Origin: Chelativorans xinjiangensis
GTDB lineage: Bacteria > Pseudomonadota > Alphaproteobacteria > Rhizobiales > Rhizobiaceae
NCBI RefSeq assembly: GCF_009812055.1
Contig: NZ_WQNH01000013.1
Span: 1 to 64,000 of the forward strand
Direction of reading: 5' to 3'
DNA length: 64,000 nt
Within the stretch, counting starts at the first letter, position 1; each line of letters opens with the position of its first letter. Of this stretch, positions 8,134 to 37,427 are shown piece by piece. A model generated the notes under the pieces. That model did no database searches and had not been told where the DNA came from. It worked only from the letters and a program-made list of their open reading frames with translations. Both the position numbers and the translations under genes were made by a program.

Positions 8134-8151
8134 TGCCCTAAAGGGAGGTGG

Positions 8152-9767: not shown

Positions 9768-10234
9768 CGAACCTCTCCTGTCATGGTCAAGACCTCCCTC
9801 ATCGGCTGGACCACCGCGACACGCGCCCTTCCCTGTACTGGCGCTCGACGGCGCAACCTCCCACCGGACATCCGTCGCGGCCGTCCCGCCGGGGCACCAG
9901 TCCGCAACAGGTGCTCACCGCACAAGGGGCTTTGGGTCGCTCCCGACGGGAAGGCCCGGTCACGCCAGTCTACAACTCACACCAGCGCGTCGACATGAAA
10001 AGGTACAGGGGGCCCGCAGCCGTCGATATCAGCAGGGTCTTTTCCAGACAGCGGCATGATGGGCCAACATAATCCAAGTTTACTCTCGATAGCTCATTAC
10101 AGAGTGCGCCTTATCCTCTCCAGTTCGCAATGTTTGCCGCCCAACGGTGAACGCATAAAAAGACTATAGGCTCGACACTCGCAACGCCACGATGGGCCTA
10201 CCAACGAAGGAAGTGGACGTCAAAGTAGCGCTAA
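9768..10234. other. Non-coding stretch upstream of the IS110 transposase
   Basis: No convincing gene is present in these 467 bases. IS110-family elements carry a non-coding RNA (bridge RNA) in a terminal non-coding region, usually upstream of the transposase. About 9768-10050 is therefore the place to look for one on the minus strand. I did not fold it and cannot define the element boundary. The more distal part looks like unrelated, AT-richer host sequence. Confidence 0.35.
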
Positions 10235-11295: not shown

Positions 11296-11532
11296 ATGCG
11301 GGTCCAATTGTTCGTGTTCATCCTATCCGTTCTGGCTGCGTTTGCCGGGATTTTTTCTCTCCTCTGGCTGATGTGCCAAGTTTTGGATCACGATTGGCTG
11401 GTCATGCTGCACATGTATTTCACGCCGATCATCCTGTCGGTCGCCCTCGGCATTGTTTTAATTCTCACGTCCAATCGGCGGATGCTTGTCCGCAGGAAGC
11501 GCGCACCAGGAAACCATCCAGTGGAGCGGTGA
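11296..11532 (+). CDS. Small membrane protein, unknown
   Basis: A 78-residue protein with two hydrophobic segments (about 5-28 and 40-60) and a basic Arg/Lys-rich tail, suggesting cytoplasmic ends. I do not recognise the family. It converges on cueR and overlaps that gene's 3' end by about 75 bases, which lowers confidence that it is real. Confidence 0.45.
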   Translation: MRVQLFVFILSVLAAFAGIFSLLWLMCQVLDHDWLVMLHMYFTPIILSVALGIVLILTSNRRMLVRRKRAPGNHPVER

Positions 11533-11949
11533 GCTGGGTTCGTCGCGCAGACGCTCCGCGCCCTCCCCCGCCAGGTCGTCGAGAATCGGACAATCTGGTC
11601 GATCGTCGCCCTCGCAATGTGCGATGAGATGTTGGAGCGTCCGCTGCGTGGCCTGAAGTTCTGCTAGCTTCCCGTCGAGGACAGCCATGTGAGCCAGGGC
11701 GAGCGCCTTGACGTCCGCACTTGCCCGGTTCTTGTCCTGCCAAAGGGTGAGCAACTGGCGGATATCGTGCACCGAGAACCCCAGTCGGCGGGCGCGGTGG
11801 ATGAAGCGCAGTGTGTGAACGTCCTTCGCACTGAATGACCGATAGCCGGACCCGGTGCGGATAGCAGCCGGGATGAGGCCGGTGTTTTCGTAGTAGCGGA
11901 TGGTTTTTGCCGATATGCCCGAAGCCTGCGCAGCCTGCCCGATGTTCAT
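11458..11949 (-). CDS. cueR: Cu(I)-responsive MerR-family regulator CueR
   Basis: A 163-residue activator/repressor that senses cytoplasmic Cu(I) and controls copA. The N-terminal MerR helix-turn-helix begins MNIGQAAQASGISAKTIRYYE. The metal loop has the CueR C-X7-C pattern (CEGDDRPDC) near residue 113. ATG 11949 is chosen because it starts the family sequence and follows GAGGAGG; longer versions overlap copA. It lies 10 bases behind copA on the same strand, so both are made from the CueR-type promoter at 14548-14578. The tail after ILDDL is longer than in E. coli CueR. Confidence 0.9.
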   Translation of the reverse strand: MNIGQAAQASGISAKTIRYYENTGLIPAAIRTGSGYRSFSAKDVHTLRFIHRARRLGFSVHDIRQLLTLWQDKNRASADVKALALAHMAVLDGKLAELQATQRTLQHLIAHCEGDDRPDCPILDDLAGEGAERLRDEPSSPLHWMVSWCALPADKHPPIGREN

Positions 11950-11959
11950 GATCGCCTCC

Positions 11960-14515
11960 TCACGGCGTCGCCGTGACCGCCCTAATGCCCTCACTTGATT
12001 CCATACTGGCGCCCACCGACACGGGGGGCCGGAAAGTCTTGAGCCGGAGCGCATTGGTGACAACGAAGACGCTGGAGAACGCCATGGCGGCGGCGGCAAG
12101 CATGGGCGAGAGCAGGACGCCGAAGGCCGGATAAAGCACGCCAGCCGCCACTGGGATCAGCGCGGTGTTGTATGCAAAGGCCCAGAACAGGTTCTGCTTG
12201 ATGTTCCTGAGCGTGCTGCGGCTCAAGCCGATGGCGTTGGGCACGCCGGTCAATTCGCCCGACATCAGCACCACATCCGCACTCTCGATCGCCACGTCGG
12301 TGCCGGTGCCGATGGCGATGCCGACATCGGCTTCGGCAAGGGCCGGCGCATCGTTGATGCCGTCGCCGACAAAGGCCAGCTTGCGACCCTGTTCGCGGAA
12401 CCTGTGGAGAGCCTCCACCTTGCCGTCGGGCAGGACTTCGGCCACGACCTCATCGATCCCAAGTCGCTTTGCGATGGCTTCCGCCGTGCGCCGATTGTCG
12501 CCGGTGATCATCGCGATCTTCAGGCCGAGTTGGTGCAGCGCCTCGATCGCGCGGGGCGTCGTCGGCTTGATCGGGTCGGCCACGGCAAGGATCGCCGCGA
12601 GCTTACCGTCGATCGCCGCATAAAGCGGCGACTTCCCCTCGTCGCCGAGTCGCCCCGCGACATCCGCAAGGCGCCCGGTATCGATCCCGAGCCGGGCCAT
12701 CAGCCGGTCGGCCCCGACCGCAACCGCGCGACCGGTAACCATGGCGCTGACGCCGAAGCCCGGTATGGCTTCGAACGATTCGGGACCGCCAATCGCCAGA
12801 CCAGCCTCTTTGGCGGCTTCCACGATCGCCTCGCCGATCGGATGTTCCGACCGCGTTTCGACGGCGGCGACCAACGCCAGAACCTCGTCGCGCTCAAATC
12901 CGTTCTCGGTGATAAGATCGGTGAGCTCCGGCCGCCCCTTGGTCAACGTGCCGGTCTTGTCGAGCGCAATCACTTCCGCCCGGCGCAGCGTCTGTAACGC
13001 CTCGCCATTGCGGAACAGAATACCCATCTCCGCCCCTCGGCCGATGCCCACCATGATGGAGGTTGGCGTGGCCAGCCCCATGGCGCAGGGGCAGGCGATG
13101 ATCAGGACGGTGACCGCCGCCACCAGCGCGAAGGTGAGCGCCGGCTCCGGCCCGAAGCCGAACCAGCCGAGAAAGGTGATCAAGGCAACCCCCATCACCG
13201 CCGGGACGAACCAGGCCGTCACCTTGTCGACCAGCGCCTGGATCGGTAGCTTTGCCGCCTGCGCCCGCTCCACCATCTGGATGATCTGAGCAAGGACGGT
13301 GTCCGCCCCCACCTTAGTGGCGCGGAAGGAAAACGATCCGGTCTTGTTGATCGTGGCGCCGACAACCGTGTCGCCGGCGCCCTTGGCGACCGGCATCGGC
13401 TCGCCTGTGATCATGGATTCGTCGACGAAGGACGAACCCTCGGTCACCTCGCCGTCGACGGCGATCTTTTCGCCGGGTCGCACGAGAACCAGGTCGCCGA
13501 CCTTGACCTCATTGAGCGGCACTTCGACGGCTTCGCCCTCGCGCAGGATTCTGGCCGTCTTGGCCTGGAGGCCCATCAGCCGCTTGATCGCCTCGCTGGT
13601 GCGGCCCTTGGCCCGCGCCTCCAGAAAGCGGCCGAGCAAGATCAGGGTTATGATCACCGCTGCGGCCTCGAAATAGACGTGCCGCGTGCCTTCCGGCAGG
13701 AGTCCGGGCAGGAAGGTTGCCACCACCGAATACAGCCAGGCTGCCCCCGTGCCGAGCGCGACCAGGGAATTCATTTCGGGCGTCAGGCGCATGAGCGCGG
13801 GAAAGCCCTTCTTGAAGAACCGCAAGCCCGGCCCGAAGAGGATCACGCTGGTGAGCGCGAACTGGAGATACCAACTCGCCTGCAGGCCGATACGATCGGC
13901 GACAAATGTCTCAATCGTGGGGACCAGATAAGCGCCCATCTCCAGCGCGACCACCGGCACACTCAAGATCGCGGCAAGCATGAATGAGCGCGCGAGGCTT
14001 CTTGTTTCGCGTTCGCGCGCGTCGGCCTCATGATCGGCGGGTTCATCCGGGACAACGCGCCGAGCCGCGTAGCCGAGCCGTTCGACCGCGGTTTCCAGAT
14101 CTGCAACGCCTACGACATCAGATACAATTTCGACGGAGGCCTTTCCCGTAGCGAGATTCACCGTAGCGTCCGTCACACCAGGCACAGCCTTCAAGGAGGT
14201 CTCAATGCGACCGACGCAGGAGGCGCAGCTCATACCTTCGATCGAGAAATCGATGCTTTCGGTCTCCACTCCATAGCCGGCATCCTTGATCGCTCGGATG
14301 ACGGCCTCCGCATCGGGCGGTCCCGAAAAGGCAATATCTGTGTGTTCGGTCGCCAGATTGACCGAGGCGGACACCACACTTGGAACCGCCTGGATGGCCT
14401 TCTCGACCCGACCGACGCAGGAGGCGCAGTTCATGCCTTCGATGGAAATGCTAAGCCGGCGGGGCACGGCATGAGCCGGTAGGCTCCTATTTTCTGATGC
14501 GACCAAGGATGCCAT
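11960..14515 (-). CDS. copA: Cu(I)-exporting P1B-type ATPase CopA
   Basis: An 851-residue inner-membrane pump that exports Cu(I) to the periplasm. Two N-terminal heavy-metal-associated domains carry GMNCASC (about residue 27) and GMSCASC (about residue 95). The transport motif is CPC in [15 protein letters not shown]. The phosphorylation site is DKTGTLTKG, the phosphatase motif is TGE (ITGEPMPV), and the hinge is [19 protein letters not shown] 14515 gives the usual N-terminus; ATG 14578 would overlap the promoter. cueR follows in the same unit. Confidence 0.95.
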
Positions 14516-14578: not shown

Positions 14579-14689
14579 GGGCTGAGGGAAATATTCGATT
14601 GGCCCTGAAGTTGTGATGTGGCCTGTGACGATCAGTCTCTCAAAGTGGTGATTGGCAGTGGAACGCCAATTCTCTATATTGCCAATGTG

Positions 14690-15031
14690 ATGAAAACCGT
14701 CCGTTGCCTCTTAGCTGCTCTGCTGCTCCTCGTTTTCGGGGGCGGAACGGTTTTGGCTACCGCACAGAGTGGCGATATGGTTCAGCCTGCCATTGAAGCG
14801 TCGGTTGACCAACCGATGCCGGGCGGCTGCAACGACTGCGGCGGCAATGACAATGCCATGACCACGACGGCATGTTTCGCTTTTGGAACCTGCATGCAAG
14901 CCGTCGATTCTCTTGCCGCGGACTCACTGCCGCGGCCGGATTCCGTCATCTATCCGACCGTTGCCGAGCACATCACAGGCTTCACGGGCTCGCCCGAGCC
15001 CTTTCCCCCCAAAGCATCCATCCTCTCCTAG
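14690..15031 (+). CDS. Small exported Cys-rich protein, unknown
   Basis: A 113-residue protein that begins with a signal peptide ([15 protein letters not shown]..., residues 1-24). A short mature part follows with a Cys-rich patch, GGCNDCGG ... ACFAFGTC, which could bind metal. I start it at ATG 14690; the ORF could extend to 14618 but that would add residues before the signal peptide. It is the first gene of the divergent run from the copA promoter region, which suggests a role in copper handling. No family was recognised. Confidence 0.6.
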
Positions 15032-15082
15032 GACGGGCCTCACCGCTCGACTGAGGTGATTTCCCGTCCGGGGTCCGGGTGA

Positions 15083-15138
15083 GCACGCTTTTGCGTGCCC
15101 AGCCTTCTTGGACCGTATCCGCCGCAGGCTTTTGCCTG
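15083..15138 (+). repeat. Two adjacent hairpins with TTTT loops
   Basis: Bases 15083-15098 form GCACGC-TTTT-GCGTGC and 15125-15138 form CAGGC-TTTT-GCCTG. Both lie in the 137-bp gap before ccmG. Neither is followed by a T run, so they are weak as intrinsic terminators; they might slow transcription or process the mRNA. Confidence 0.6.
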
Positions 15139-15168
15139 TGAGGAAACACTCCAATCAGCGAGGATGGG

Positions 15169-15795
15169 ATGTCTTCCAATTCTCAAACGGCTCGCATCCA
15201 TGCGAGCACCCCGTCATCCCTTTCGGGGGAGCCGGTCGATACGGTCGATCCGCCATCCATCCGGCGTCGCCGTTTGATTGTCGCGGTGCCGGTCGGCGTT
15301 TTCGCAGCACTTGCGGTCGTGCTCGGCTGGGGGCTGAGCCGCAACGCTCAGATCATCCCCTCGGCCCTGATCGGCAAAGAGGTGCCCGAATTCAGCCTGC
15401 CGCCGGTCCAGGGGCGTACCCTTGGCCTGTCGAGCGCCGACCTCAAGGGCGAGGTCTCGCTCGTCAACGTGTTTGCGTCCTGGTGCACGGCCTGTCGGGA
15501 AGAGCACCCGGTCTTCATGGAGCTCAAGAGGACCGGCGCCGTACCCATCCACGGCATCAACTACAAGGACCGGCCGGGTGACGCGGAAAAATGGCTCAAC
15601 ACCATGGGCGATCCGTATACGCGCACCGGCGCTGACCTCAACGGACGAGTGTCGATAGATTGGGGCGTGTACGGCGTTCCGGAGACCTTCGTGGTCGACA
15701 AACAAGGCCGGATTGCCTTCAAGCATCTCGGTGCCGTCACCCCGGACGTCTACCGGACGAAGCTCGCTCCGCTGATCGAGGAGCTCCGGAAATGA
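15169..15795 (+). CDS. Thioredoxin-family CcmG/DsbE-like thiol:disulfide protein
   Basis: A 208-residue protein with an N-terminal membrane anchor (about residues 34-57) and a periplasmic thioredoxin fold. The active site is WCTAC at about residue 105 (FASWCTACREEHP), where CcmG proteins usually have WCVPC. The family's YGVPETFVVDKQGRI cis-Pro loop is present. It would reduce CcmH/apocytochrome or copper-site disulfides outside the membrane. ATG 15169 follows GAGG. Its stop overlaps the ATG of the next thioredoxin gene. Confidence 0.85.
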   Translation: MSSNSQTARIHASTPSSLSGEPVDTVDPPSIRRRRLIVAVPVGVFAALAVVLGWGLSRNAQIIPSALIGKEVPEFSLPPVQGRTLGLSSADLKGEVSLVNVFASWCTACREEHPVFMELKRTGAVPIHGINYKDRPGDAEKWLNTMGDPYTRTGADLNGRVSIDWGVYGVPETFVVDKQGRIAFKHLGAVTPDVYRTKLAPLIEELRK

Positions 15796-16421
15796 AGAGC
15801 GCTACCAAGAGTAAGGCGACTGCCACCATCATTGGCGCCGTCTTGTTCCTTGTCGCGGTTGGTGCCTATCAGTATTTCGCGATCAGGCAGCCCAACGAGC
15901 CTGCGGTATCGAGCGCGCCGCAAGCTGTATCTACGGAGACCGCGAGCAGCGATAGCTCCTTCGTGCTGCACGAGACGCCGCAACCGGTATCGGAACTCTC
16001 CTTCGTTGATGGAGATGGCCGCGAGATGTCCCTGGCGGCTTTCCGCGGCAGAACGATCCTGCTCAACATCTGGGCCACCTGGTGCGTGCCATGCCGCGAG
16101 GAAATGCCGGCACTCGACCGGCTCCAGGCAAAGCTCGGCAGTTCCGATTTCGAAGTCGTCCCACTTTCGATCGACCGCGACGGGCTCCCCAAGGTCAAGG
16201 CCTTCTATGACGAGCTCAGCCTGAAAGCTCTCGGCATCTATGTCGATGCCTCCGGCAAGGCGGCCTACCGGCTCAATACGGTCGGCATCCCCACGACCCT
16301 GCTGATCAATCCAGAGGGTCTGGAAACCGGACGTCTGGTGGGGCCCGCCGAATGGGACAGCCCGGAGCTGGTCAACTTCATCCAACAGAAACTCGAGAAG
16401 ACGCCCGACGAGGCGAGCTGA
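15792..16421 (+). CDS. TlpA-like thioredoxin-family protein
   Basis: A 209-residue membrane-anchored thioredoxin (anchor about residues 12-30). The active site is WCVPC in NIWATWCVPCREEMP, and a cis-Pro loop is at VGIPTTLLI. Family members such as TlpA reduce Sco and Cu(A)-site cysteines for cytochrome oxidase assembly. That fits the sco and cox11 genes downstream in the same run. The start overlaps the previous stop by ATGA. Confidence 0.85.
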   Translation: MKSATKSKATATIIGAVLFLVAVGAYQYFAIRQPNEPAVSSAPQAVSTETASSDSSFVLHETPQPVSELSFVDGDGREMSLAAFRGRTILLNIWATWCVPCREEMPALDRLQAKLGSSDFEVVPLSIDRDGLPKVKAFYDELSLKALGIYVDASGKAAYRLNTVGIPTTLLINPEGLETGRLVGPAEWDSPELVNFIQQKLEKTPDEAS

Positions 16422-16448
16422 CCTTCTCTTTGAACACGGGATTCCACC

Positions 16449-17402
16449 ATGAACAGACCGTACAGACTTTGGCTCATTCCGGTCCTTGCCGCTGCCGCGA
16501 CAATCGTCGGCCCGGCGATGGCGCAACAGGAGCCGCTGCCCGCTACGTCAGGCAGTGAAATCAACCAGAAGGAAGGGGGCCAATTGGCGCCCAGCCGCTT
16601 TGGCGGGCACGTCCACGCATTGGCGGTGAATCCCGAGACGAAGGAACTCTTCCTGGGCGCCCGGCCGATCTACCGGAGCACCGACAACGGAAAATCCTGG
16701 ACTGCAATCGAGGGCATTCCAAAAAGCGAAGAGCGGGCCAACATCACGTCGATCGCGATCGACCCGAGCGATCCGCAGGTGATGTATGCGACCGGTCACG
16801 GCATCGGCGTGGTCAAGAGCGCGGACGGTGGCAAAACCTGGGAGGCCGCCAGCTCAGGCCTTGGCGGGCTCTCCACGGAAGGGTTCACTATCGACGGCAA
16901 GGACCCGAACACGCTTTATGTCTGGGTGCTGGGCAACGGCCTTTACCGCAGCAAGGATGCGGCAACATCCTGGCAACGGGTCGATGACGGACCCAAAAAA
17001 CAGGAGATCCGCAGCCTCGTCTCCGTCAACAGCCCGACCGGCATGGGCGGCATCTGGCTTTACGCCGGGCTCGACGCCGGCGTGATGAAGAGCCCCGACT
17101 GCTTCTGCGGTTGGGATCGACTCCCGAACGAAGGCCTACCTGAGGGCCGCGTCTATAGCCTCGCCGTCGATCCCTCGGACCCGCAAGTCCTTTACGCGGG
17201 GCTGCGCCCGGGCGTCTTCAAGACCATGGACGGCGGGCAAAGCTGGAAATCAGTCACCGATCTCGTCGAGGACGCGGTAGTGACGGTCAATGCCGGTGAT
17301 CCGAGCCAACTCTATGCCATTGGCGCGGACGGGACCCTCATCGTCAGCCCGGACGCCGGAGAACACTGGACAACGGTGGAGGCCGACGATGCTGAAGGCT
17401 AA
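16449..17402 (+). CDS. Exported beta-propeller (BNR/sialidase-like repeat) protein
   Basis: A 317-residue exported protein with a signal peptide of about 25 residues (ending AMAQ). The repeats STDNGKSW, SADGGKTW, SKDAATSW, TMDGGQSW and SPDAGEHW are BNR/Asp-box motifs, giving a multibladed propeller. It resembles the F510_1955 glycosylhydrolase group in repeat style only; no sialidase catalytic set is visible, so enzymatic activity is doubtful. A second propeller protein is encoded at 20143 in the same run. The 3' end overlaps the next gene by 14 bases. Confidence 0.75.
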   Translation: MNRPYRLWLIPVLAAAATIVGPAMAQQEPLPATSGSEINQKEGGQLAPSRFGGHVHALAVNPETKELFLGARPIYRSTDNGKSWTAIEGIPKSEERANITSIAIDPSDPQVMYATGHGIGVVKSADGGKTWEAASSGLGGLSTEGFTIDGKDPNTLYVWVLGNGLYRSKDAATSWQRVDDGPKKQEIRSLVSVNSPTGMGGIWLYAGLDAGVMKSPDCFCGWDRLPNEGLPEGRVYSLAVDPSDPQVLYAGLRPGVFKTMDGGQSWKSVTDLVEDAVVTVNAGDPSQLYAIGADGTLIVSPDAGEHWTTVEADDAEG

Positions 17403-17961
17403 TCCGAGACCGGAAACCTTCGCCAGGGCCAGGACCTGGCTAATGCCTCTGCTCGTCGTAGCGGTCCTTGCCGGTGGCGTCGCTATTGGAGCCTACCGGG
17501 CTGTCGCACCGGAGGCGCCTCAGGCGGATTACAGTCATATGATGCCGGCGAAGGCGACACCCGGCGCAACGCTCGCCATCGACCGGGAAGAGGCCGAGCT
17601 CGGCGTGCTGGCGGTCGACGATGTGGGGCGAGCGCAATTCCGGCTGAAGAACACGGGTAACGAACCTGTCGAGATCAGCCAGGTCCGCACCTCGTGCATG
17701 TGCACCTTCGCCGAAATCGCCCTGCCGGCCGGCAAGAGCCCTGAATTCAACATGGCGATGCACAACGATGCCGCCGCGAATGCCTGGAAGGGCGTGCTTA
17801 ATCCCGGCGATGAGGCGGCCGTCACCGTCATCTACAAGCCGGCGCTGATGCCGGTCGAAGGATCCGTCGCGCGCAACGTGAAGTTCGCCACCACCGACCC
17901 GCAGAATCCGCACGTCGAACTCGGCGTGCACGCAACCGTCAAAGGGGGTGCGGCCGGCTGA
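17389..17961 (+). CDS. DUF1573 protein, membrane-anchored
   Basis: A 190-residue protein with one N-terminal membrane segment (about residues 16-34) and a periplasmic DUF1573/ASPM-SPD-2-Hydin-like Ig domain. The family pattern FRLKNTGNEPVEISQVRTSC is clear, followed by MCTFA, which gives a C-X-C pair. These domains are often involved in surface or redox assemblies, but the function is unknown. ATG 17389 overlaps the end of the propeller gene. Confidence 0.7.
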   Translation: MLKANPRPETFARARTWLMPLLVVAVLAGGVAIGAYRAVAPEAPQADYSHMMPAKATPGATLAIDREEAELGVLAVDDVGRAQFRLKNTGNEPVEISQVRTSCMCTFAEIALPAGKSPEFNMAMHNDAAANAWKGVLNPGDEAAVTVIYKPALMPVEGSVARNVKFATTDPQNPHVELGVHATVKGGAAG

Positions 17962-18013
17962 TGGCTCGCCAGAGACCAAAGTCACAGCAGCCAGAGAAGA
18001 AAGAGAAACGTCC

Positions 18014-18505
18014 ATGAGCAATTCCGTATCCGAAACATCGCTGAGCGCGGACATATTCCGCTACATCCGCTACCAATTGCGCGGCCGACGCGGCCTAATC
18101 GTCGCGGCAATCGCAGTTGGTATCCCTGCACTCTGGATCGGCTGGCCATGGCTGGTGGTGGCAGGGATTGCGCCCATTCTGCTCGCGCTCGCGCCCTGCG
18201 CCATCATGTGTGCTCTCGGTCTTTGCATGCGGCATGGCGCCTCCGGCGCGAGCGACACCGACGCGAGCAGTTCCAACCTCTCCAGCGGCGAAGCGAGCTG
18301 TTGCTCGAAACCGCAATCGGTCGACGATACGACCGTTTCGATGACTGCAAGCAAATCGGCTGAGGGATCGGCGGAGCCAGTGGCTGCGGAAGCTCCGCTT
18401 CCAGCCAATTCGAACTCGGTTGACGACGACAAAGAGGATCAACCCGAGGCGGCCGGACCCCTGTCCGGTGCGACCATCAAACAGGAAAAGGAGAAATTCC
18501 AGTGA
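18014..18505 (+). CDS. Small membrane protein with Cys clusters, unknown
   Basis: A 163-residue protein with two close hydrophobic segments (about 30-45 and 48-70). The second contains CAIMCALGLC, an unusual Cys spacing inside or at the membrane. The soluble acidic C-terminal tail has an SCCSKP motif. The Cys sets suggest metal binding. ATG 18014 is used; an earlier ATG would overlap the DUF1573 gene. The stop overlaps the GTG of the next gene. Confidence 0.6.
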   Translation: MSNSVSETSLSADIFRYIRYQLRGRRGLIVAAIAVGIPALWIGWPWLVVAGIAPILLALAPCAIMCALGLCMRHGASGASDTDASSSNLSSGEASCCSKPQSVDDTTVSMTASKSAEGSAEPVAAEAPLPANSNSVDDDKEDQPEAAGPLSGATIKQEKEKFQ

Positions 18506-18777
18506 ACAGGATATCGAAAACCATTGCGATTGCAGCCGGCCTTGCAGGACTTGCCGCCGCCCCGATCGCCTTTGCGCAGGACGATACGGACACCAAGCAG
18601 CCGGATCAGTCGCAAGGCATGCAGGAGATGATGCAGGGCGGCGGCATGGGGATGATGCCGATGATGGGCATGATGTCCCAGATGAACGAGATGATGAGCA
18701 CCTGCAACAAGATGATGCAGGCCATGATGCAGGACATGCCTTCCGAGGAGGGCGAGCAGCCCGACAACAAGGGTTAG
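18502..18777 (+). CDS. Exported Met-rich small protein (possible Cu(I) binder)
   Basis: A 91-residue protein with a signal peptide (residues 1-25, ending AFAQ) and a mature part very rich in methionine: GMQEMM, GGGMGMMPMMGMM, MMQAMMQDM. Such Met-rich segments bind Cu(I) in periplasmic copper proteins. GTG 18502 overlaps the preceding stop, so translation is coupled. It is clearly part of the copper run; the specific family is unknown. Confidence 0.7.
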   Translation: MNRISKTIAIAAGLAGLAAAPIAFAQDDTDTKQPDQSQGMQEMMQGGGMGMMPMMGMMSQMNEMMSTCNKMMQAMMQDMPSEEGEQPDNKG

Positions 18778-18845
18778 CTGCACAACGGGAGGCGGATCGG
18801 TGGACTTACCGATTCGCCCTCCCCTTGTCGGCCAAGGAGGACGCC

Positions 18846-19547
18846 ATGAAATCCCTTATACGCCTGTTTGCCGCAACCGCGGCCGTTGTCGCCGTGGTCG
18901 CCCTGGCTCCCCCAATCGCTTCGGCGCACTCGCTCAAAGACGTGCAGCAGGACCTCTTCGACACGGAGAAATATTTCGAAAGCAGAAACGAACCCGCCCC
19001 GGAATTTGCGCTTCAGGACGCCGACGGCAATCCGGTCGATCTGGAAGGCCTTCAGGGCAAAGTCGTGGTGCTTCACTTCATCTACGCCGGTTGTCCGGAT
19101 GTTTGCCCGTTGCATGCCGATCGGATCGGCGAGATCCAGGAGATGGTGAACGAGACCCCGATGAAGGACCGGATGCAGTTCATCACCATCACCACCGATC
19201 CGGAGCGCGATACGCCGGAGGTGCTGGAAGGGTATGGCCCCGTCCACGGCCTCGATCCGTCGACGAACTGGGTCTTTCTGACGAGCGGCCCTGACAAGCC
19301 CGAGGACACCACTCGTAAGCTCGCCGAGAAGTTCGGCCACAAGTTTATCGTCACCGAAGACGGATTTCAGACCCACAGCGTGGTCACCCATATCATCGAT
19401 CAGAACGGCCAATGGGTGGCCAATTTCCACGGTCTCGGCTTCGAGCCGACGAACCTCGTTCTCTTCATCAATGGCTTGACGAACGCGAACGTCCCCCATC
19501 ACGAAGAGCCCGCCTCGCTGTGGGACCGCCTCCGCTCCCTGTTTTAG
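18846..19547 (+). CDS. SCO1/SenC/PrrC family copper chaperone
   Basis: A 233-residue exported thioredoxin-fold protein with a signal peptide (ending ASA). The CPDVCP copper motif lies at about residue 85, and the distal conserved His is in THSVVTHIID. Sco proteins insert copper into the CuA site of cytochrome oxidase or manage periplasmic copper redox. No oxidase subunits are encoded in the window, so here it may serve copper defence. ATG 18846 begins the signal peptide and follows AGGAGG (18836-18841) closely. Confidence 0.85.
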   Translation: MKSLIRLFAATAAVVAVVALAPPIASAHSLKDVQQDLFDTEKYFESRNEPAPEFALQDADGNPVDLEGLQGKVVVLHFIYAGCPDVCPLHADRIGEIQEMVNETPMKDRMQFITITTDPERDTPEVLEGYGPVHGLDPSTNWVFLTSGPDKPEDTTRKLAEKFGHKFIVTEDGFQTHSVVTHIIDQNGQWVANFHGLGFEPTNLVLFINGLTNANVPHHEEPASLWDRLRSLF

Positions 19548-19570
19548 AAAGAAGAAGATTGAAACCAACC

Positions 19571-20146
19571 ATGTGGAAACAATTCAGAATCGGAATCGTC
19601 ACCGTCGCCTTGACGGCAAGTCCGACGATGACTCATGCCGCCGAAATTGCCGTCACGCTCCATGAAGTGACGATGGAGGGCATCAGCAGTGAGATCGGTC
19701 AAATCCGGTTCGAGGACAGTGAATACGGCCTGCTGATCAAGCCCGACCTCCATGGCCTGCCGCTGGGGCCGCATGACACCCACCTCCACGAGAATCTTGA
19801 CTGCGGGCCTGTAGAGCTCGACGGCGAACTGATCCCCGCCGACGCGGCCGGTGGTCATTATGGCCCCCACAAAACCGGTCGCTTGGAGGGCCCATACGGC
19901 AACGGCGCTCTGGGTGACCTGCCAAACCTGATCGTTGAGCACGACGGCGCCGCCACGATCCCCGTACTTGCCCCCCGTCTCAAGGTTGAAGACCTGCACG
20001 GACGCGCAGCTGTGATTCATGCCGGCCCGGGCCGCTATGGAGAAGGTCACGCCAGTCACCACCACGATGAAGCCAGCGCCCGCCGTATCGCCTGTGGCGT
20101 CATGGATAGCGGCAAAAGGCACCGTCAACCGAGGAATCTCGCATGA
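19571..20146 (+). CDS. sodC: SodC-like Cu,Zn superoxide dismutase, zinc ligands missing
   Basis: A 191-residue exported SodC homologue (signal peptide about 1-24). Copper ligands are kept: H71 and H73 (THLHE), H96 (AGGHYGP) and H150 (VIHAG). The disulfide cysteines C78 and C175 and the active-site Arg172 are also kept. Two zinc ligands are lost: the His of the usual TGKHEGP is Leu105 (TGRLEGP), and the His of GAGHLGDLP is Ala113 (GNGALGDLP). Only H96 and D116 remain. The usual GGGG loop is replaced by a His-rich HASHHHDEASA. It looks like a copper-only enzyme or a copper store. Stop overlaps next start. Confidence 0.8.
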   Translation: MWKQFRIGIVTVALTASPTMTHAAEIAVTLHEVTMEGISSEIGQIRFEDSEYGLLIKPDLHGLPLGPHDTHLHENLDCGPVELDGELIPADAAGGHYGPHKTGRLEGPYGNGALGDLPNLIVEHDGAATIPVLAPRLKVEDLHGRAAVIHAGPGRYGEGHASHHHDEASARRIACGVMDSGKRHRQPRNLA

Positions 20147-21018
20147 AACGTCACATGAACCCGCTGATCATCGCCGCAACGCTGGCACTGGCTATAGCTG
20201 GCGGCACCGCCGGTTGGCAGAGTCAGGCTGGGGAGCGCGTTCCCCTTGCCGAGGTCTCCCATATTCATGGGATTGCGGTCGATCCGGCCGACCCGCAGCG
20301 CCTCTATCTCGCCACCCATTACGGTGTCTGGCACACCGCGCCGGACGGCACGGCGGAGCAGATATCCGATAACAGCAACGACTACATGGGTTTTTCCCCG
20401 CATCCCAGCGAAGCTGACGTGTTCTTCGCCAGCGGACATCCGGTGAGTGGCGGCAATATGGGCGTGATCGTCTCGCGAGACGGCGCCCGGAGCTGGCAAC
20501 AATTGGCGAGCGGCGCTGACGGACCGGTCGATTTCCATGCCATGGATGTTAGCCCGGCCGATCCCAACGTCATTTACGGCCTCTACGGTAGGGTGCAAGT
20601 CAGTCGGGACGGTGGCAAAAGCTGGGAGATTGCTGGGTCTCCACCTGCCGACGTGTTCGATCTCGCCGCGTCCGCCGTCAATACGGACATCGTCTATGCC
20701 GCGACCCGAAACGGGCTGATGGTCAGCCTCGACGGTGGCAAGAAGTGGAATGCCACAGGGACCGAGGGACGGCCGGCGAGCATGGTCGAGACCGCCCCGG
20801 ACGGCTCGGTCTACGCGTTTGTGTTGGGGTCAGGCCTGATGAAGGCGCCGGCCCAGGCTCTCGCTTGGCAGCCAGTCGCCAACGGTTTCGGAGAGCAAAT
20901 CCTCCTCCACCTCGCGTTCGATCCTAGCAATCCGGACCGCATGTTCGCAGTCACAGGGGAAAGCAAGATTCTGACCAGCACCGACGGCGGCAAGAACTGG
21001 ACCGCCTTGAGTTCGTGA
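20143..21018 (+). CDS. Second exported beta-propeller (F510_1955-like)
   Basis: A 291-residue protein with an N-terminal signal peptide (about 1-27). The start of the propeller, VSHIHGIAVDP, matches the F510_1955 glycosylhydrolase-type family. Repeats SRDGARSW, SRDGGKSW, SLDGGKKW and STDGGKNW are Asp-box motifs. It shares the fold but little apparent sequence with the propeller at 16449. A conserved HIHG near the N-terminus could bind metal. ATG overlaps the sodC stop. Confidence 0.75.
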   Translation: MKRHMNPLIIAATLALAIAGGTAGWQSQAGERVPLAEVSHIHGIAVDPADPQRLYLATHYGVWHTAPDGTAEQISDNSNDYMGFSPHPSEADVFFASGHPVSGGNMGVIVSRDGARSWQQLASGADGPVDFHAMDVSPADPNVIYGLYGRVQVSRDGGKSWEIAGSPPADVFDLAASAVNTDIVYAATRNGLMVSLDGGKKWNATGTEGRPASMVETAPDGSVYAFVLGSGLMKAPAQALAWQPVANGFGEQILLHLAFDPSNPDRMFAVTGESKILTSTDGGKNWTALSS

Positions 21019-21032
21019 GGCGAAGGAAGAGC

Positions 21033-21683
21033 ATGCATAGCAACCAGCATCTGCCCGGATCGGCCCTTCCCGAAGGTCGCCGGAATAGCCCCGAGTTCTC
21101 CTTGCGGCGGAAACGCCGAACGGCCGCGATGCTTGCCGCTCTCGTGCTTGGCATGGTGGGGCTGAGCTTTGCGGCGGTCCCTCTTTACCGGCTGTTTTGC
21201 CAGGTGACCGGCTACGGAGGCACGACGCAAGTCGCTACAGCGGCGCCGGAACAATCCGAGCGCAGGATCACGGTCCGCTTCGACGCCAATGTCGCCGCCA
21301 ACATGGCTTGGGCGTTCAGCGCTCCGAAACCGGTCGAGCTAGCCCTCGGTGAGACCGGACTGGTGGCTTACACAGGACGCAATCCGACCAATCGCCCGAT
21401 TCTCGGCACGGCCACCTACAATGTCACGCCAGCCCAAGCAGGGGTCTATTTCAACAAGATCCAATGCTTCTGCTTCACCGAGCAGTTGCTGATGCCGGGC
21501 GAGGAGAAGGAGTTTCCCGTCAGCTTCTTTGTCGATCCGGCGATCGAAGACGATCCGGACCTGGCTTCAGTTACCACCATCACGCTCTCCTACACCTTTT
21601 TCGACAAGGGAGCGGAAGCCCTGGAAAAGTACATGGCCTCTCATGGGATCAAGGCTGCTGAGCTGAAGGATCAAGAGCGATGA
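21033..21683 (+). CDS. ctaG: Cytochrome c oxidase assembly protein Cox11/CtaG
   Basis: A 216-residue membrane-anchored copper chaperone that metallates CuB of cytochrome oxidase. One N-terminal membrane segment (about residues 32-55) carries AAVPLYRLFCQVTGYGG, the family hallmark. The periplasmic Cu(I) site CFCFTEQ lies at about residue 148. ATG 21033 is chosen because GAAGGAAG precedes it; a GTG at 21015 is also in frame. No oxidase subunit genes adjoin, which is unusual for ctaG. Confidence 0.9.
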   Translation: MHSNQHLPGSALPEGRRNSPEFSLRRKRRTAAMLAALVLGMVGLSFAAVPLYRLFCQVTGYGGTTQVATAAPEQSERRITVRFDANVAANMAWAFSAPKPVELALGETGLVAYTGRNPTNRPILGTATYNVTPAQAGVYFNKIQCFCFTEQLLMPGEEKEFPVSFFVDPAIEDDPDLASVTTITLSYTFFDKGAEALEKYMASHGIKAAELKDQER

Positions 21684-21749
21684 GCCACTTTTACGCCAAA
21701 AGGGCAGCCGCTGCTGTTTCCCCGTTCACTGGCGATCGGAGCCTGACCC

Positions 21750-22523
21750 ATGTCTAAGCCAACTGCCGGCCTTGCCGCCGCGATCGCTCCTTCGGCCCTC
21801 GCCGTGCTCTTCTCCGGGCTGGCGTTACTTTTTGCCACCGGGCTGCTCGACGCCGAAAGGCCGGTCTCGCGCAATTTCGAAGCGCAGGCGCGGCAGTATC
21901 TGCTGCAAAATCCGGAAATCGTCGTTGAAGCCCTGCAACGGCTGGAAGACCGCCGGCAGTTCGCGGAGGCGAATGAGTTGCAGACGCTGATCGCGGAGCG
22001 GCGCGACGATATCTTCAACGATGCCGCGGCGCCAACGGTCGGTAATCCGGAAGGCGATGTCACGCTGGTCGAATTCTTCGACTACAACTGTCCATATTGC
22101 CGGAAGGCGGCCCCCGACATCCAGCAAGCCGTCAAGGACGACCCCAGTCTGAAGCTGGTGTTCAAGGAATGGCCGATCCTGGGGCCGGGTTCCGAGTTCG
22201 CCGCAAAGGCGGCGCTCGCGTCCCACAAGCAGGGAAAATACGAGGCGTTCCATAACGCCCTGATGGGCTTTCCCGGCCGGGTCAGCGAGAGTTCCACCCT
22301 AACCATCGCGGGGGATATTGGCCTCGACGTTGAGCAGCTCAAGCGGGATATGGGAGACCCGGCCATCGCAGACATCATTGCGCGCAATCGCGCGCTCGCC
22401 AACGATCTGCGCATCACCGGCACGCCGACCTTCGTAGTCGGCGACGAAATCATCCGCGGGCTGGTCGACCTCGCCACGCTGCAGCGCTTCATCGCCGACG
22501 CGCGCGAAAAGCCTGAGGGTTAA
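21750..22523 (+). CDS. DsbA-family thiol:disulfide protein
   Basis: A 257-residue membrane-anchored (residues 10-31) thioredoxin-fold protein with NCPYC active site (FFDYNCPYCRKA), an inserted helical DsbA domain and a cis-Pro loop in ITGTPTFVVGDE. This is the DSBA/Com1-like group that acts as a periplasmic disulfide oxidase or isomerase. The next gene encodes a CcdA-like electron channel, so the pair could cycle reducing power across the membrane. Confidence 0.85.
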   Translation: MSKPTAGLAAAIAPSALAVLFSGLALLFATGLLDAERPVSRNFEAQARQYLLQNPEIVVEALQRLEDRRQFAEANELQTLIAERRDDIFNDAAAPTVGNPEGDVTLVEFFDYNCPYCRKAAPDIQQAVKDDPSLKLVFKEWPILGPGSEFAAKAALASHKQGKYEAFHNALMGFPGRVSESSTLTIAGDIGLDVEQLKRDMGDPAIADIIARNRALANDLRITGTPTFVVGDEIIRGLVDLATLQRFIADAREKPEG

Positions 22524-22527
22524 TACA

Positions 22528-23268
22528 GTGTTCGAGATATCCAATATCGGCATTTTGACAGCGCTTGCGGCGGGTGCGATCTCGTTCCTCTCGCCGTGCG
22601 TGCTGCCCCTCGTGCCGGGCTATATCTCCTATGTCGCCGGCAATGCCGCCGTCGCCGGCGGACCATCCCAGTCTGTCGGCAGCCGGCTTTCCACATTGCT
22701 TCTCAGCACCTGGTTCGTTCTCGGCTTCTCGACCGTCTTCGTTGCACTTGGGGCAAGCGCGACGGCAATCAGCCGCCTCCTTTTGGCGTACCGCTACGAA
22801 ACCAACATTCTCGGAGGGGCGATCATCATCGTCTTCGGGCTGTTTATGACCGGCCTTGTGCGCTTACCGTGGCTTCACCAGGAGATTCGCTTTCATGGCA
22901 GCCTGGCCGGCGGCCGGCCGCTCGGCGCCTATGTTTTGGGCCTCGCTTTCGGCTTTGGCTGGACACCCTGCATCGGACCGGTTCTTGGAGCGATCCTCAC
23001 CGTCAGCGCGCTGTCCTCAACCGCGTCGAACGGGATCGCACTGCTCAGCATCTATTCCATCGGCCTTGGCGTACCCTTCCTGCTAGCGGCGTTGTTCACC
23101 GAAAGCCTCACCAAGCGGCTGAAAGGTATGAAGCGCACCGGACGCCTGCTTCAAATGGCGGCTGGCGCGATCATGATCGTCATGGGTGTGGCGATGATGA
23201 CCGGCACCATGACGACCTTCTCGTTCTGGCTGCTCGAGCAGTTCCCCATTCTCACGAAAATCGGCTGA
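22528..23268 (+). CDS. CcdA/DsbD-like transmembrane electron-transfer protein
   Basis: A 246-residue inner-membrane protein with six hydrophobic segments. The family's two cysteines occur in FLSPCVLPLVPGY near the N-terminus and GWTPCIGPVLG in the fourth segment. It moves electrons from cytoplasmic thioredoxin to periplasmic partners such as CcmG, TlpA or DsbA, all encoded nearby. GTG 22528 is the start, 4 bases after the DsbA stop. Confidence 0.9.
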   Translation: MFEISNIGILTALAAGAISFLSPCVLPLVPGYISYVAGNAAVAGGPSQSVGSRLSTLLLSTWFVLGFSTVFVALGASATAISRLLLAYRYETNILGGAIIIVFGLFMTGLVRLPWLHQEIRFHGSLAGGRPLGAYVLGLAFGFGWTPCIGPVLGAILTVSALSSTASNGIALLSIYSIGLGVPFLLAALFTESLTKRLKGMKRTGRLLQMAAGAIMIVMGVAMMTGTMTTFSFWLLEQFPILTKIG

Positions 23269-23363
23269 GGAGGACCTTCCTATGACCCCCAAATTGCGAG
23301 CTCAGCAAAGCGACGAACGACCTATCCATTTCTGGCGAGCAAAATAGTTAGGAGAATCCACTG

Positions 23364-24103
23364 ATGAAATCGTACAACTTGCGACGACCGGATTTTCTCG
23401 ACCGTCGAACTTTTCTTCGTCTGGGCGCCGCCGCTTCCCTGCTTGGTCTGGGTGGCTGCTCAACGACGCAAATAGCTCAGCCCTTCGTGCGAGAGACCGC
23501 TTCCCGGTTTCCGGTCGCGGAGGGTGGTGTCTCCGGGCTTGAAAACGATCTTACCTACTACGCAGCGATGTACGCGGCGCGGCCCGAGGAAGAATTCCCG
23601 CTTCCGGCCATCCCCGTTGAACGCATCGATCCAGTCTATTTTCGGCAACTCGTCGCGAATCCGACCGGCGAGCGTCCGGGCACGATTGTGGTCAATACTG
23701 CCAATCACTTTCTCTATCTGACCCACGAGAATGGCAAGGCGATGCGCTACGGCGTCGGTCTTGGCCGCGCCGGCTTTGAATGGGCCAGGCGCGCTGGAAG
23801 CCGCCCGACGAAATGGTCGCCCGCCAGCCCGAGCTTGAACCCTACAGCATCGCCAATGGCGGCATGGACCCGGGTCTCACCAATCCGCTCGGAGCACGCG
23901 CGCTCTACATCTTCCAGAACGGCAAGGATACCCTCTACCGCATTCATGGTTCGCCGGAATGGTGGACAATCGGCAAGTCCGTGTCATCGGGCTGCGTCCG
24001 CATGTTCAATCAAGATGTGATCAATCTCTACGAGCGTGTCCCCAACGGCACACCGATCCTGGTAACCAGCCTCAGCCCGACCACGCCAGATCTGTTGGGT
24101 TGA
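23364..24103 (+). pseudogene. L,D-transpeptidase, frameshifted by an internal deletion
   Basis: The N-terminal part (lipobox-like LLGLGGCST, then AEGGVSG...) reads from ATG 23364 to about 23785 and ends at GRAGFEW. The remainder (RWKPPDEMVARQPELEP, HGSPEWWTIGKSVSSGCVRM with the catalytic His and Cys) reads in another frame to 24103. About a dozen residues that normally link these parts are absent, so a small deletion not divisible by three has broken the gene. The intact protein would cross-link peptidoglycan. It ends the copper run and converges with msrQ. Confidence 0.8.
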
Positions 24104-26061: not shown

Positions 26062-27024
26062 TCAGCTCGGCGACCCGGCCATGGCTGGTATCCAGCGCAC
26101 ATAGACAAGCTCACTCACCAGCTCGATCATCGTCTGGGTGACGACGACGGCCGGAACGAGCGGCACACCGCCCGGGACCGCGAAGGCGAGCGGAAGGATG
26201 ACGAGCGAGTTGCGCGTGGCGGCGCTGAACGCCACGGCGCGCATAGCGCCAGGGGCAAGGCGGCTGCTGCGCGCGGCAAGCCAGCCGAGCACCGGCGCCA
26301 CGACGGCATAGGCCAGGTAGATCGGCGCCGCGGTCAGCGCCGCGCCCGCGGCCTCTCCGATCTGCGGCATGACGGCGGCCAGGACGAGGAAGAGCACGAG
26401 GGCCGTTGCCGGCACCGGCAGCAGGCCGAGGGCAGTCAATGCGCGCTCGCCGGTCGCCGTCCGGGCCGCCCAGAGCTGCAGGACCGCCGCAAGCAGCAGC
26501 GGCACGGCGATCAACCACAAGAAGGCGTGGAGGAAGGGCTCCGGGCGGACGAGACCGGAGGCGTCGCTACCGAGCAGCAGGCGCAGATAGAGCGGCAGCA
26601 GCGCCATCTGCACGAGCAGGAGCGCCGGCGTCGCCGCCAGCAGAAGCCTGGCGTCGCCACGTCCGAGATGTGTGAACGTCACCACATAGTCGACGCACGG
26701 CGTCAAGAGCACGAACAGCACCGCCAACCGCAGCATCGGCTCATCGGGCAGCAGCTGCACCAAGAGCGCCGTGACCGCCGGCATCAGGACGAAATTGGTC
26801 GCAAGCAGCACGCCGAGGAAGCGCGTGTTGCGCAGCGCCGATCCGAGTTCCGCCAGCGGAACCTGGAGGAAGGTGACGAAGAGCATGAACGCAAGAGCGG
26901 GGTTGATCGCAGCCCCAAGCGCGCCGACCCGCGGGACGCCGAGGCCGGCAAGCGCCCCGATGGCGATCGCCGCCAGATAGATCGCCACCTGGTGCTCCTC
27001 GAGAACCGAGCGAACCTGCTCCAC
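26062..27024 (-). CDS. BASS-superfamily transporter, arsenic-resistance (ACR3-like) type
   Basis: A 320-residue membrane protein with about ten hydrophobic segments. LLTPCVDYVVTFTHLGRG has the conserved Cys of ACR3-type arsenite exporters, and the second half holds FSAATRNSLVILP. It probably exports a metalloid oxyanion; arsenite is the usual substrate but bile-acid/Na+ symporter relatives exist. GTG 27024 is preferred because GGAGG lies 5 bases upstream; an ATG 4 bases earlier is in another frame. A MerR-type regulator lies directly upstream. Confidence 0.8.
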   Translation of the reverse strand: MEQVRSVLEEHQVAIYLAAIAIGALAGLGVPRVGALGAAINPALAFMLFVTFLQVPLAELGSALRNTRFLGVLLATNFVLMPAVTALLVQLLPDEPMLRLAVLFVLLTPCVDYVVTFTHLGRGDARLLLAATPALLLVQMALLPLYLRLLLGSDASGLVRPEPFLHAFLWLIAVPLLLAAVLQLWAARTATGERALTALGLLPVPATALVLFLVLAAVMPQIGEAAGAALTAAPIYLAYAVVAPVLGWLAARSSRLAPGAMRAVAFSAATRNSLVILPLAFAVPGGVPLVPAVVVTQTMIELVSELVYVRWIPAMAGSPS

Positions 27025-27066
27025 TCATGCCTCCTTTCTTTCGGCTTCGACTGCAGGCGCTTGATG

Positions 27067-27540
27067 CTACCGCCGGGCACGTAGTCGTCTTGCCGTCTGC
27101 CCGGCTTCGCTTACGGTTCTCGCCTGGCTGGACGGCGTGGCAAGGTCTCCCAGGATCGTGCAGTCAGGCCCGGGACCGCCGGCGCAGGCGGTCTCGCAGC
27201 TTTCGACAAAGCGCGCGAGGCTCCGTTCCAGCGCTTTAAGCTCGCGCAGCTTGGCGCGCACGGCCGCCAGATGCTCCTGGGCGAGGTCGCGTGCTTCCAG
27301 GCAGGAACGGCCCGGTTCCTCGGCGAGCGTCACCAGCGACCGCACCTGTTCGATCGGGAAGCCGAACTCGCGGCAGCGGCGGATCAGGGTCAGGCGTTTG
27401 ACGTCCTCGTCGCCATAGCGGCGCTGACCACCGTCCTGGCGATCGGCGCGCGGTACGAGGCCGATCTCCTCGTAATAGCGGATCGTCGGCGCATTCGTGC
27501 CGGTGCGTGTGGCGAGGTCGCCGATCTTCAATGCGGGCAT
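27067..27540 (-). CDS. MerR-family metal-responsive regulator (CueR/HmrR-like)
   Basis: A 157-residue regulator with the helix-turn-helix at MPALKIGDLATRTG...TIRYYEE and a C-X7-C metal loop (CAGGPGPDC), preceded by another Cys (SCETAC). Such loops bind monovalent copper/silver/gold or, in variants, other thiophilic ions. ATG 27540 starts the family sequence. It precedes the exporter and faces a divergent promoter at 27572-27602 with MerR-type spacing, which it probably controls. Confidence 0.85.
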   Translation of the reverse strand: MPALKIGDLATRTGTNAPTIRYYEEIGLVPRADRQDGGQRRYGDEDVKRLTLIRRCREFGFPIEQVRSLVTLAEEPGRSCLEARDLAQEHLAAVRAKLRELKALERSLARFVESCETACAGGPGPDCTILGDLATPSSQARTVSEAGQTARRLRARR

Positions 27541-27571
27541 CGCTCGTTTCCTCACAATTTGCATTCGCCTC

Positions 27572-27602
27572 TTGAACCTCAAGTTACTTGAAGTCCTATC
27601 TT
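27572..27602 (+). promoter_or_regulatory. MerR-type promoter, 19-bp spacer, facing right
   Basis: TTGAAC (27572-27577) and TATCTT (27597-27602) are separated by 19 bases containing CTCAAGTTACTTGAAG, a near-palindrome resembling a SoxR/MerR operator. It lies between the divergent regulator (start 27540) and the gene at 27662 and points toward the latter. Confidence 0.8.
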
Positions 27603-27661
27603 TGCGCCAATACTCGCCGCGATGCCTGCGAAGCGTCACGGCGGAACCGCTGGAGTGAAGA

Positions 27662-28051
27662 ATGAACGGGACAATTTCTGAAGCAGAACCGATCGCCTGC
27701 ACCCTTGAGGCCGGAGAGTTCGGGAAGCGCCTCGACTGGATTGCAGAACTTAACCGGGCCGCATTGCTGGACGTGCAGCGGAAAGGACTGCGGCTGATCC
27801 TGACCTATCGTGGGGAGCATGCGGACCGCGTCCGCGAGATGGTCCGCCAGGAACAGCAATGTTGCGGTTTTCTCGGCTTCGACCTGAGGGAGGGCGAGGG
27901 CCGCGTGACGCTTGTCATCAGGGCGCCGGAGAGTGCTGCCGACGCTCTCGACACGATTTTCGAGCCTTTCCTGCAGGATTCATCCCGGAGCGGAGGCTGC
28001 GCGTGCGCGGCCGCGTCCAGCCGAAAGGGAGAAGACAATGACAGATGCTGA
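27662..28051 (+). CDS. Conserved-looking protein with a CC motif, unknown
   Basis: A 129-residue soluble protein. The core (about residues 8-105) ends with MVRQEQQCCGFLGFDLREG, where paired cysteines could bind a thiophilic metal, and the tail carries GGCACA and a last Cys. I do not recall a characterised family, though similar QEQxCC proteins occur near MerR regulators. It follows the MerR-type promoter and overlaps the next gene by 14 bases. A metal chaperone, buffer or sensor role is inference only. Confidence 0.7.
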   Translation: MNGTISEAEPIACTLEAGEFGKRLDWIAELNRAALLDVQRKGLRLILTYRGEHADRVREMVRQEQQCCGFLGFDLREGEGRVTLVIRAPESAADALDTIFEPFLQDSSRSGGCACAAASSRKGEDNDRC

Positions 28052-37417: not shown

Positions 37418-37427
37418 GGGAACTCCC

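Follow-up and report, generated by a model that had tools for sequence, protein, structure and literature searches.

Why would thioredoxins, a Sco protein, a Cox11 and two beta-propellers be encoded in a single row with no cytochrome oxidase gene beside them? The question is raised by a 64,000-nucleotide stretch of the Chelativorans xinjiangensis genome (contig NZ_WQNH01000013.1; "the window" refers to this whole stretch), in which 13 genes, all on the + strand, run from 14690 to 23268. We propose that this run is a copper-responsive operon, controlled by a CutF-like sensor peptide, that serves to protect thiols outside the cytoplasm and to rebuild cuproenzymes. We estimate a probability of roughly 60% for this reading, which is based on gene content, conservation, gene order, and a predicted RNA fold.

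An earlier note on this DNA, made from the sequence alone, had described fourteen genes in one direction with mostly overlapping or short gaps. Thirteen of these stand, while the fourteenth, an L,D-transpeptidase beyond the run, is broken over two reading frames. The tight spacing is borne out: neighboring genes between dsbE and ccdA are spaced by -14 to +68 nucleotides (nt), and the leader gene is followed by a gap of 137 nt. Profile searches also recovered the families that had been named (CcmG/TlpA thioredoxins, DsbA, CcdA, DUF1573, Sco, Cox11, SodC, and two propellers). The genes are, in order:

14690..15031, + strand: putative CutF-type leader, 113 amino acids (aa), with a signal-like N-terminus, C47xxC50, C62, C68, and a C-terminal PEPFPPK
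15169..15795, + strand: DsbE/CcmG-type thioredoxin (WCTAC), from Pfam and NCBIfam
15792..16421, + strand: TlpA-type thioredoxin (WCVPC), from Pfam and NCBIfam
16449..17402, + strand: Asp-box beta-propeller 1, from Pfam and NCBIfam
17389..17961, + strand: DUF1573 protein (PF07610), an accessory gene
18014..18505, + strand: CysTM, a membrane-like core protein with an invariant PC..MC.LG.C and no Pfam or NCBIfam family
18502..18777, + strand: small Met-rich protein that looks exported
18846..19547, + strand: divergent Sco (PF02630) that retains CxxxC and the later His
19571..20146, + strand: Cu-only-type SodC (PF00080) with a His-rich loop
20143..21018, + strand: beta-propeller 2 (F510_1955), with five His and two Met among its invariant columns
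21033..21683, + strand: Cox11, second copy (PF04442), an accessory gene
21750..22523, + strand: DsbA/ScsC-type protein with ScsC_N (PF01323 and PF18312)
22528..23268, + strand: CcdA-type membrane thiol electron carrier (PF02683)

DsbE matches TIGR00385 with 174.3 bits (the cut-off is 123). The top NCBIfam match of the second thioredoxin is a rhizobial TlpA model, at 173.7 bits, which is under that model's cut-off of 230. Both Asp-box propellers match NF045728 ("F510_1955"), and propeller 2 alone exceeds the cut-off. A search of the window against Rfam gave no match.

We compared the run across 27 loci: the window, seven close relatives, and 19 distant loci from the Hyphomicrobiales. The close relatives are three Chelativorans loci (L005, L006, and L007), the Sinorhizobium plasmid pSinB (L042), a plasmid of S. 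meliloti (L043), a Nitratireductor plasmid whose copy is cut by IS6 (L044), and a Jiella plasmid (L046). Because four of the close copies are on plasmids, the gene set is mobile. The fetched stretches were 11-31 kb (for the window, its first 45 kb), and some were ended by contig ends. We excluded a Mesorhizobium plasmid (L045) that has a remnant with DsbA and CcdA near ccoN.

The earlier note took the first, Cys-rich small protein for a copper buffer. We instead think that it is probably a CutF-like leader that senses copper during its own export, because it has a signal-like N-terminus (judged by eye), four invariant Cys, the motif PxPFPP, and a long gap before dsbE. In all eight close loci, the window included, C47, C50, C62, C68, and PxPFPP are invariant, the C-terminus ends in [KR]-x-x-[IT]-[LF]-[AS], and the distance from the leader's stop to the start of dsbE is 134-140 nt. 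(The dsbE of L007 looks damaged.) According to the available part of PMC9973294, CutF is exported, senses copper, and regulates the gene that follows through its Cys motif, its Pro motif, and a stem-loop downstream; each of these matters, as does the signal sequence. The window's leader agrees with three filters for CutF-like proteins from the same paper: its length is below 150 aa (113-123 aa across the close loci), PP lies in the last 15 residues (106-107 of 113, invariant in 8/8), and dsbE follows on the same strand within 1000 nt. The leader has no match in Pfam or NCBIfam.

To describe the recurrence of the run, we defined six core genes: DsbE, TlpA, CysTM, Sco, DsbA/ScsC, and CcdA. We counted those downstream of the leader, on its strand, and within 11 kb; a tally of core genes anywhere in the stretch gives the same totals. 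At least four of the six are present in 5/7 close relatives (the exceptions are L007, at a contig end, and L044, with its insertion sequence) and in 14/19 distant loci. Searched against 397 genomes of the order (own included), the leader alignment gave 12 besides our own, and in 9 of these 12 the neighborhood of 18-20 kb has at least four core genes. The other three are L094 and L103, which have a propeller with the Met-rich gene plus CysTM or Sco, and L095, which has only cutO and DUF411. Searching the same 397 genomes with CysTM gave 17 besides our own, ten of them in common with the leader search. Four of the shared genomes had gone into building the CysTM query; among the 13 outside it, a leader is present in 12 (10 by profile or rule and 2 by reading translations). 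The exception is L152, a weak CysTM match with no leader in its locus. (For L149, L150, and L152, the position of the anchor is an approximation.)

None of the 27 loci contains COX1 or CcoN at a threshold of 1e-6, and the same search recovered both positive-control loci that hold oxidases. We therefore rejected a plain oxidase-assembly operon. The earlier note had also counted SodC, Cox11, and DUF1573 within the set and MsrPQ as its flank for methionine repair. Cox11 and DUF1573 are each present in 4/27 loci and SodC in the window only, so a core role is not supported for any of the three. Outside the window, tblastn gave no SodC match in these loci; weak profile matches in L005, L006, L007, and L046 are due to a part of the query that extends out of frame and overlaps sco. 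MsrPQ adjoins the run in the window, L005, and L006 alone, and we dropped it as a partner. (L110 has an MsrPQ-related pair near a propeller without core genes, and L097 has a weak match that is 30% alike.)

A class-wide search for F510_1955 gave 16/385 genomes, own included. We used 12 stretches from 10 of the 15 other genomes for context only. One (L111) has a leader-like open reading frame (ORF) followed by CysTM, the Met-rich gene, Sco, and a propeller. Two from the same genome (L106 and L107) have a match to the leader profile with a propeller, DsbE, TlpA, and Sco, on mixed strands. The remaining nine have a propeller but hardly any core genes, or none.

The distant loci link the run to copper. 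A CutO-like oxidase (at least 47% identity to that of L097, which is itself counted) is found in 11/19 of them, and a gene similar to DUF411/CutG in 15/19 (checked against Pfam for L096 and L097). For this reason we consider the run to be a thiol-redox relative of cutFOG. L096 encodes the leader, CutO, DUF411, DsbE, TlpA, CysTM, Sco, and CcdA in a single row, and the rows of L097 and L098 also include DsbA. Fusions of this kind connect the thiol run with the copper-oxidase pathway. We found no match to CutO or CutG in the window, and on another contig of the same genome (C75), a leader ending in PDPHPPRPGVLV, a CutO-like oxidase, and a DUF411 gene form one row. As for the physiological setting, the available part of PMC8456105 reports that Rhodobacter capsulatus lacking CutF or CutO loses the cytochromes CcoO and CcoP when copper is added.

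If the leader works like CutF, then the gap before dsbE should hold a control element. The features in and around this gap are:

14652..14680, + strand: promoter-like site, TTGGCA-17-TATATT, by its 10/12 matches to the consensus alone
15015..15025, + strand: predicted anti-Shine-Dalgarno segment (CATCC/ATCCTC) in the leader's last codons
15032..15168, + strand: structured intergenic region of 137 nt
15160..15168, + strand: ribosome-binding site of dsbE, GAGGATGGG, paired in the predicted fold

The end of the leader, the gap, and the start of dsbE have a predicted fold of -83.2 kcal/mol (z = -5.53), which none of 200 shuffles equaled, and in this fold the ribosome site of dsbE pairs with the leader's final codons. 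In the alignment of the eight close sequences, 88.4% of cells pair, versus 33-49% in slid controls; the consensus structure was derived from this same alignment, which favors it. Three of the eight sequences are close relatives. Pairs changed on both sides number 9, versus 4.2 +/- 1.6 in shuffles (2/500 were as high). The predicted partner of the ribosome site, the Ile-Leu codons, starts four codons past the second Pro in 8/8 leaders (one has Thr-Leu and one has Ile-Phe). A ribosome halted on PP is expected, from the usual size of its footprint, to cover these codons. No intrinsic terminator is listed between the leader and dsbE. Overall, we consider an RNA lock on the ribosome site of dsbE likely, and the support from covariation is mixed.

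The promoter-like site is the sole one on the + strand, and the total of 2 sites equals the shuffle mean of 2.0. Its second hexamer is TATATT in 7/8 close loci (TAGATT in L043) and ends 7-9 nt before the leader's ATG. By eye, no ribosome site is visible for the leader in any of the eight. This arrangement suggests that the sensor peptide is translated from a leaderless mRNA. Some distant leaders resemble the close ones, by eye, in how the hexamer and the ATG are arranged.

We propose the following mechanism. The leader would be exported while it is being made; copper bound to its Cys residues would delay export, and the ribosome would stall on PFPP. By sitting on the last codons of the leader, this ribosome would, according to the predicted pairing, free the ribosome site of dsbE and let the run be translated. 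Judging from the protein families, CcdA may then supply electrons to the outside, where TlpA, DsbE, and the ScsC-type DsbA would receive them. With these electrons the three may maintain cysteines in the reduced state or in the right pairs, in Sco and Cox11 as well as in apocytochromes and in proteins damaged by copper. Binding copper or handing it on may fall to Sco, CysTM, the Met-rich protein, and the propellers. From these proposed steps of electron delivery and copper transfer, the run would be a third arm of copper defense outside the cytoplasm, beside export by CopA and oxidation by CutO: it would protect thiols and hold spares with which cuproenzymes and c-type cytochromes can be rebuilt. 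A bolder version proposes a new switch design and a new arm of defense. In it, the stall site and the mRNA lock are the same few codons: the Ile-Leu codons at the end of the sensor would be the anti-ribosome site of dsbE, and a ribosome stalled by copper would sit on the lock itself. The operon thus opened would be mobile and induced by copper, and would serve as a reserve for the thiol-dependent biogenesis of cuproenzymes and cytochromes, with the His/Met propeller as a new type of periplasmic copper protein. We regard this version as tentative and would sooner bet against it.

Several observations weigh against a CutF-like copper operon. One slid control (-2) comes near in two-sided changes, with 7 pairs and 10 cells versus 9 and 10, though only 49% of its cells pair, versus 88%. 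The covariation term from RNAalifold is slightly unfavorable (+0.31), and the helix at the ribosome site, where 93.5% of cells pair, has zero two-sided changes and is weakened by two mismatches in L043. Another segment of the leader pairs with the ribosome site equally well or better in 5/8 leaders. A test of codon choice in the eight related leaders is only suggestive (P = 0.058, 0.049, 0.598, 0.000, 0.062, 0.39, 0.056, and 0.084; that is, at most 0.084 in six of eight, and 0.39 and 0.60 otherwise). DUF2946 (PF11162) did not match the leader of the window (threshold E 0.01) or two distant leaders (threshold E 1), so we do not class the leader as DUF2946. Also, the gap of 137 nt is nearer to the 162 nt of cruR than to the 40 nt of cutF, as given in the available parts of PMC9426467 and PMC8456105. 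Finally, a copA-like gene (E < 1e-100) is found in 9/27 stretches and a CueR-like gene (E < 1e-25) in 7/27, on either strand. The earlier note had proposed a dedicated copper system and, as its check, co-occurrence with copA-cueR and without oxidase genes. Given that the core set recurs, that COX1 is absent from the 27 loci, and that genes similar to cutO and cutG join most of the distant ones, the idea passes this check in part.

The main rival is that the run is a copper-starvation operon of the CruR type, which copper shuts off and which serves oxidase and cytochrome assembly when copper is scarce. Sco, Cox11, TlpA, and DsbE are assembly factors by family, and the length of the gap fits cruR better. 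Furthermore, the available part of PMC9426467 reports that CruR homologs precede Sco and AhpC_TSA genes in their operons and that a cruR homolog of Bradyrhizobium heads an oxidase-biogenesis operon for copper starvation. Yet in the window the run points away from copA and a CueR-like gene, CutO-like oxidases and DUF411 join it in most of the distant loci, and CusA-type pumps lie near it on two plasmids, while COX1 is absent from all 27 loci and the leader's motif is PFPP[KR] rather than RAPP. We consider this rival unlikely. The CutF-type and CruR-type readings both predict a response to copper through the leader, in opposite directions.

Two other alternatives seem to us quite improbable, about equally so. 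The run could respond to mercury or to thiol stress in general and be carried on metal islands, with copper as just one of its triggers. It has many Cys-dependent redox proteins; in the window, about 12 kb separate it from a mer block, annotated mer genes border the Jiella copy (L046), and L104 has a relative of MerA (66% identity to the window's; 7066-8505) directly ahead of the leader. But MerA above 40% identity is in only 2/27 loci (the window and L104; other matches are 29-38% identical), whereas CutO, DUF411, and Sco recur widely, which makes a mercury or general thiol role less likely than a copper operon. Alternatively, the leader could be an ordinary exported protein that binds copper with its four invariant Cys, with a promoter alone controlling the run. 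This would fit with the mixed covariation for the RNA lock, and the CutF mechanism is applied to this group of leaders by analogy. What speaks for a sensor peptide rather than an ordinary protein is the invariant C-terminal PFPP, which is at a fixed distance from the stop codon, and the structured gap of nearly constant length, with the ribosome site inside the predicted fold.

Some of the cargo proteins bear on a copper operon individually. DsbA matches the structures 3gyk, 7rgv, and several from Scs or copper resistance. It aligns to 7rgv from residue 40 and includes the N-terminal trimerization region of ScsC (PF18312), as in Scs systems. The available part of PMC8900818, on the ScsC of Caulobacter, names 7rgv and describes ScsC as a trimeric isomerase that binds Cu(I). 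CcdA, at 246 aa, consists of the DsbD_TM/CcdA domain alone and is not a three-domain ScsB. The available part of PMC6696091 reports that TlpA reduces ScoI and COX II in Bradyrhizobium.

For propeller 2, H40, H42, H59, H99, H132, M82, and M134 are invariant in 17 sequences, one of which is from an archaeal metagenome-assembled genome (MAG). The structural model (pLDDT 89.4) has 23 strands of at least 3 residues, which we read as six blades. Going by the order of the strands, the seven invariant His and Met would lie at D-A or B-C turns or at the starts of strands in blades 1-3, and so perhaps on one face. Foldseek matches are to GH74 enzymes and Ycf48, with TM scores of about 0.55-0.6. Among the 15 loci L008-L022, several of which are from related Azospirillum, 8 have an F510_1955-type propeller and a copA-like gene in the same stretch. 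Propeller 2 is 96% identical, as a protein, to that of C. alearense. The earlier note called SodC zinc-less, and this agrees with its alignment to 2wwn: if the Cu and Zn ligands are at the positions that we assume for 2wwn, the four Cu His are retained, the two Zn His are replaced, and the Zn Asp is retained. A comparison of SodC with plasmids gave 73 records, all below 60% identity. Of the 27 loci, that of this genome alone has SodC placed between sco and propeller 2, with an overlap of 4 nt to the next gene.

The neighbors of the run in the window are:

11458..11952, - strand: CueR-like regulator of the MerR family (MerR by Pfam; CueR by position and resemblance)
11960..14515, - strand: CopA-type P1B ATPase, the divergent neighbor of the run
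23364-24103, after ccdA: L,D-transpeptidase in two reading frames

The L,D-transpeptidase is intact in L005 and L006, and its split in the window reflects either decay or an assembly error. MsrQ- and MsrP-type genes are on the right of the run. Genes similar to MerA, MerP, MerT, and MerR are at 35996-39461, and transposases are at 142-1473 and 8534-8974. Together with the copper run, these form a metal-resistance island. At 26065-27702, a weak ACR3-like transporter is next to a MerR-family regulator of unclear metal. Elsewhere in the genome there are four matches to COX1, one with an adjoining Cox11, as well as three further Sco genes and another DsbE above the cut-off, so the run holds second copies. 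The earlier note's statement that no oxidase or cytochrome c maturation cluster is present refers to the window, with no COX1 near the run, and the genome as a whole does have COX1 matches.

A few other ORFs resemble parts of this system. In L093, a second leader-like ORF (2663-3052, ending in PDPYPPRAIVLS) is 4 kb before the first and just ahead of another match that resembles multicopper oxidases. In L014, a leader-like ORF (9472-9858) is just ahead of propeller 2 in a MAG labeled Stygiobacter, which reflects either a wide spread or a mis-binned contig. Similar-looking proteins of about 310 aa are encoded near copper genes in L096 (13836-14759; no Pfam family) and in L095 (7189-8139).

Much of this is already known: CutF-like control, cutFOG, Scs, and TlpA-Sco chemistry. 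Like cutFOG of R. capsulatus, the run has an exported-looking Cys leader with a C-terminal PP, copper-linked cargo, and a structured gap predicted to hide the ribosome site of the next gene, and many of its distant copies hold CutO- or CutG-like genes. It differs in that the window's cargo is a set of thiol-redox proteins, Sco, and Cox11, with neither CutO nor CutG, in that the gap is 137 rather than 40 nt, in having CxxC and two more Cys rather than CxxxC, and in that the final codons of the leader itself are the predicted partner of its ribosome site. With ScsBCD, the run shares the ScsC-type DsbA with ScsC_N, a membrane thiol carrier, TlpA-like thioredoxins, and a copper setting, and in L097 a DsbD-like protein of 740 aa, assigned by eye, follows DsbA. 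But the window has CcdA in place of the three-domain ScsB, and the run adds DsbE, Sco, Cox11, propellers, the Met-rich protein, CysTM, and the leader. The same families, with their active-site Cys retained, serve the biogenesis of oxidases and cytochrome c (TlpA-ScoI, Cox11, CcmG-CcdA), whereas the run is a second set away from oxidase genes, on a metal island, with a copper-type leader. The uORF CruR (DUF2946) of Bordetella pertussis also has a Cys motif, a C-terminal Pro motif, and a long gap downstream; it differs in its RAPP motif and in that copper represses through Rho, and our leader has no DUF2946 match.

What is new is that this long operon is conserved, that it occurs both fused with cutO-cutG and apart from them, and that a lock is proposed within the sensor's last codons. 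CutF-like leaders have been reported in the thousands, and the main text of the CutF study, as far as available, does not mention thioredoxin, TlpA, or DsbE cargo (PMC9973294). In the open-access literature, we found no description of the operon (the pSinB paper, fiw215, which we know as a reference only, may mention it) and nothing that links F510_1955 to copper or DUF1573 to copper resistance. The run would give a setting to orphan families: CysTM, DUF1573, and the F510_1955 propellers, which are named as glycosylhydrolases or sialidases.

If our proposal is correct, then copper sensing outside the cytoplasm would control thiol repair and the rebuilding of cuproenzymes, besides the removal of copper. 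The run would then offer a genetic handle on how periplasmic cysteines are kept usable under copper, and the leader and dsbE would be a clean test case for co-translational metal sensing with the lock within the sensor's own codons.

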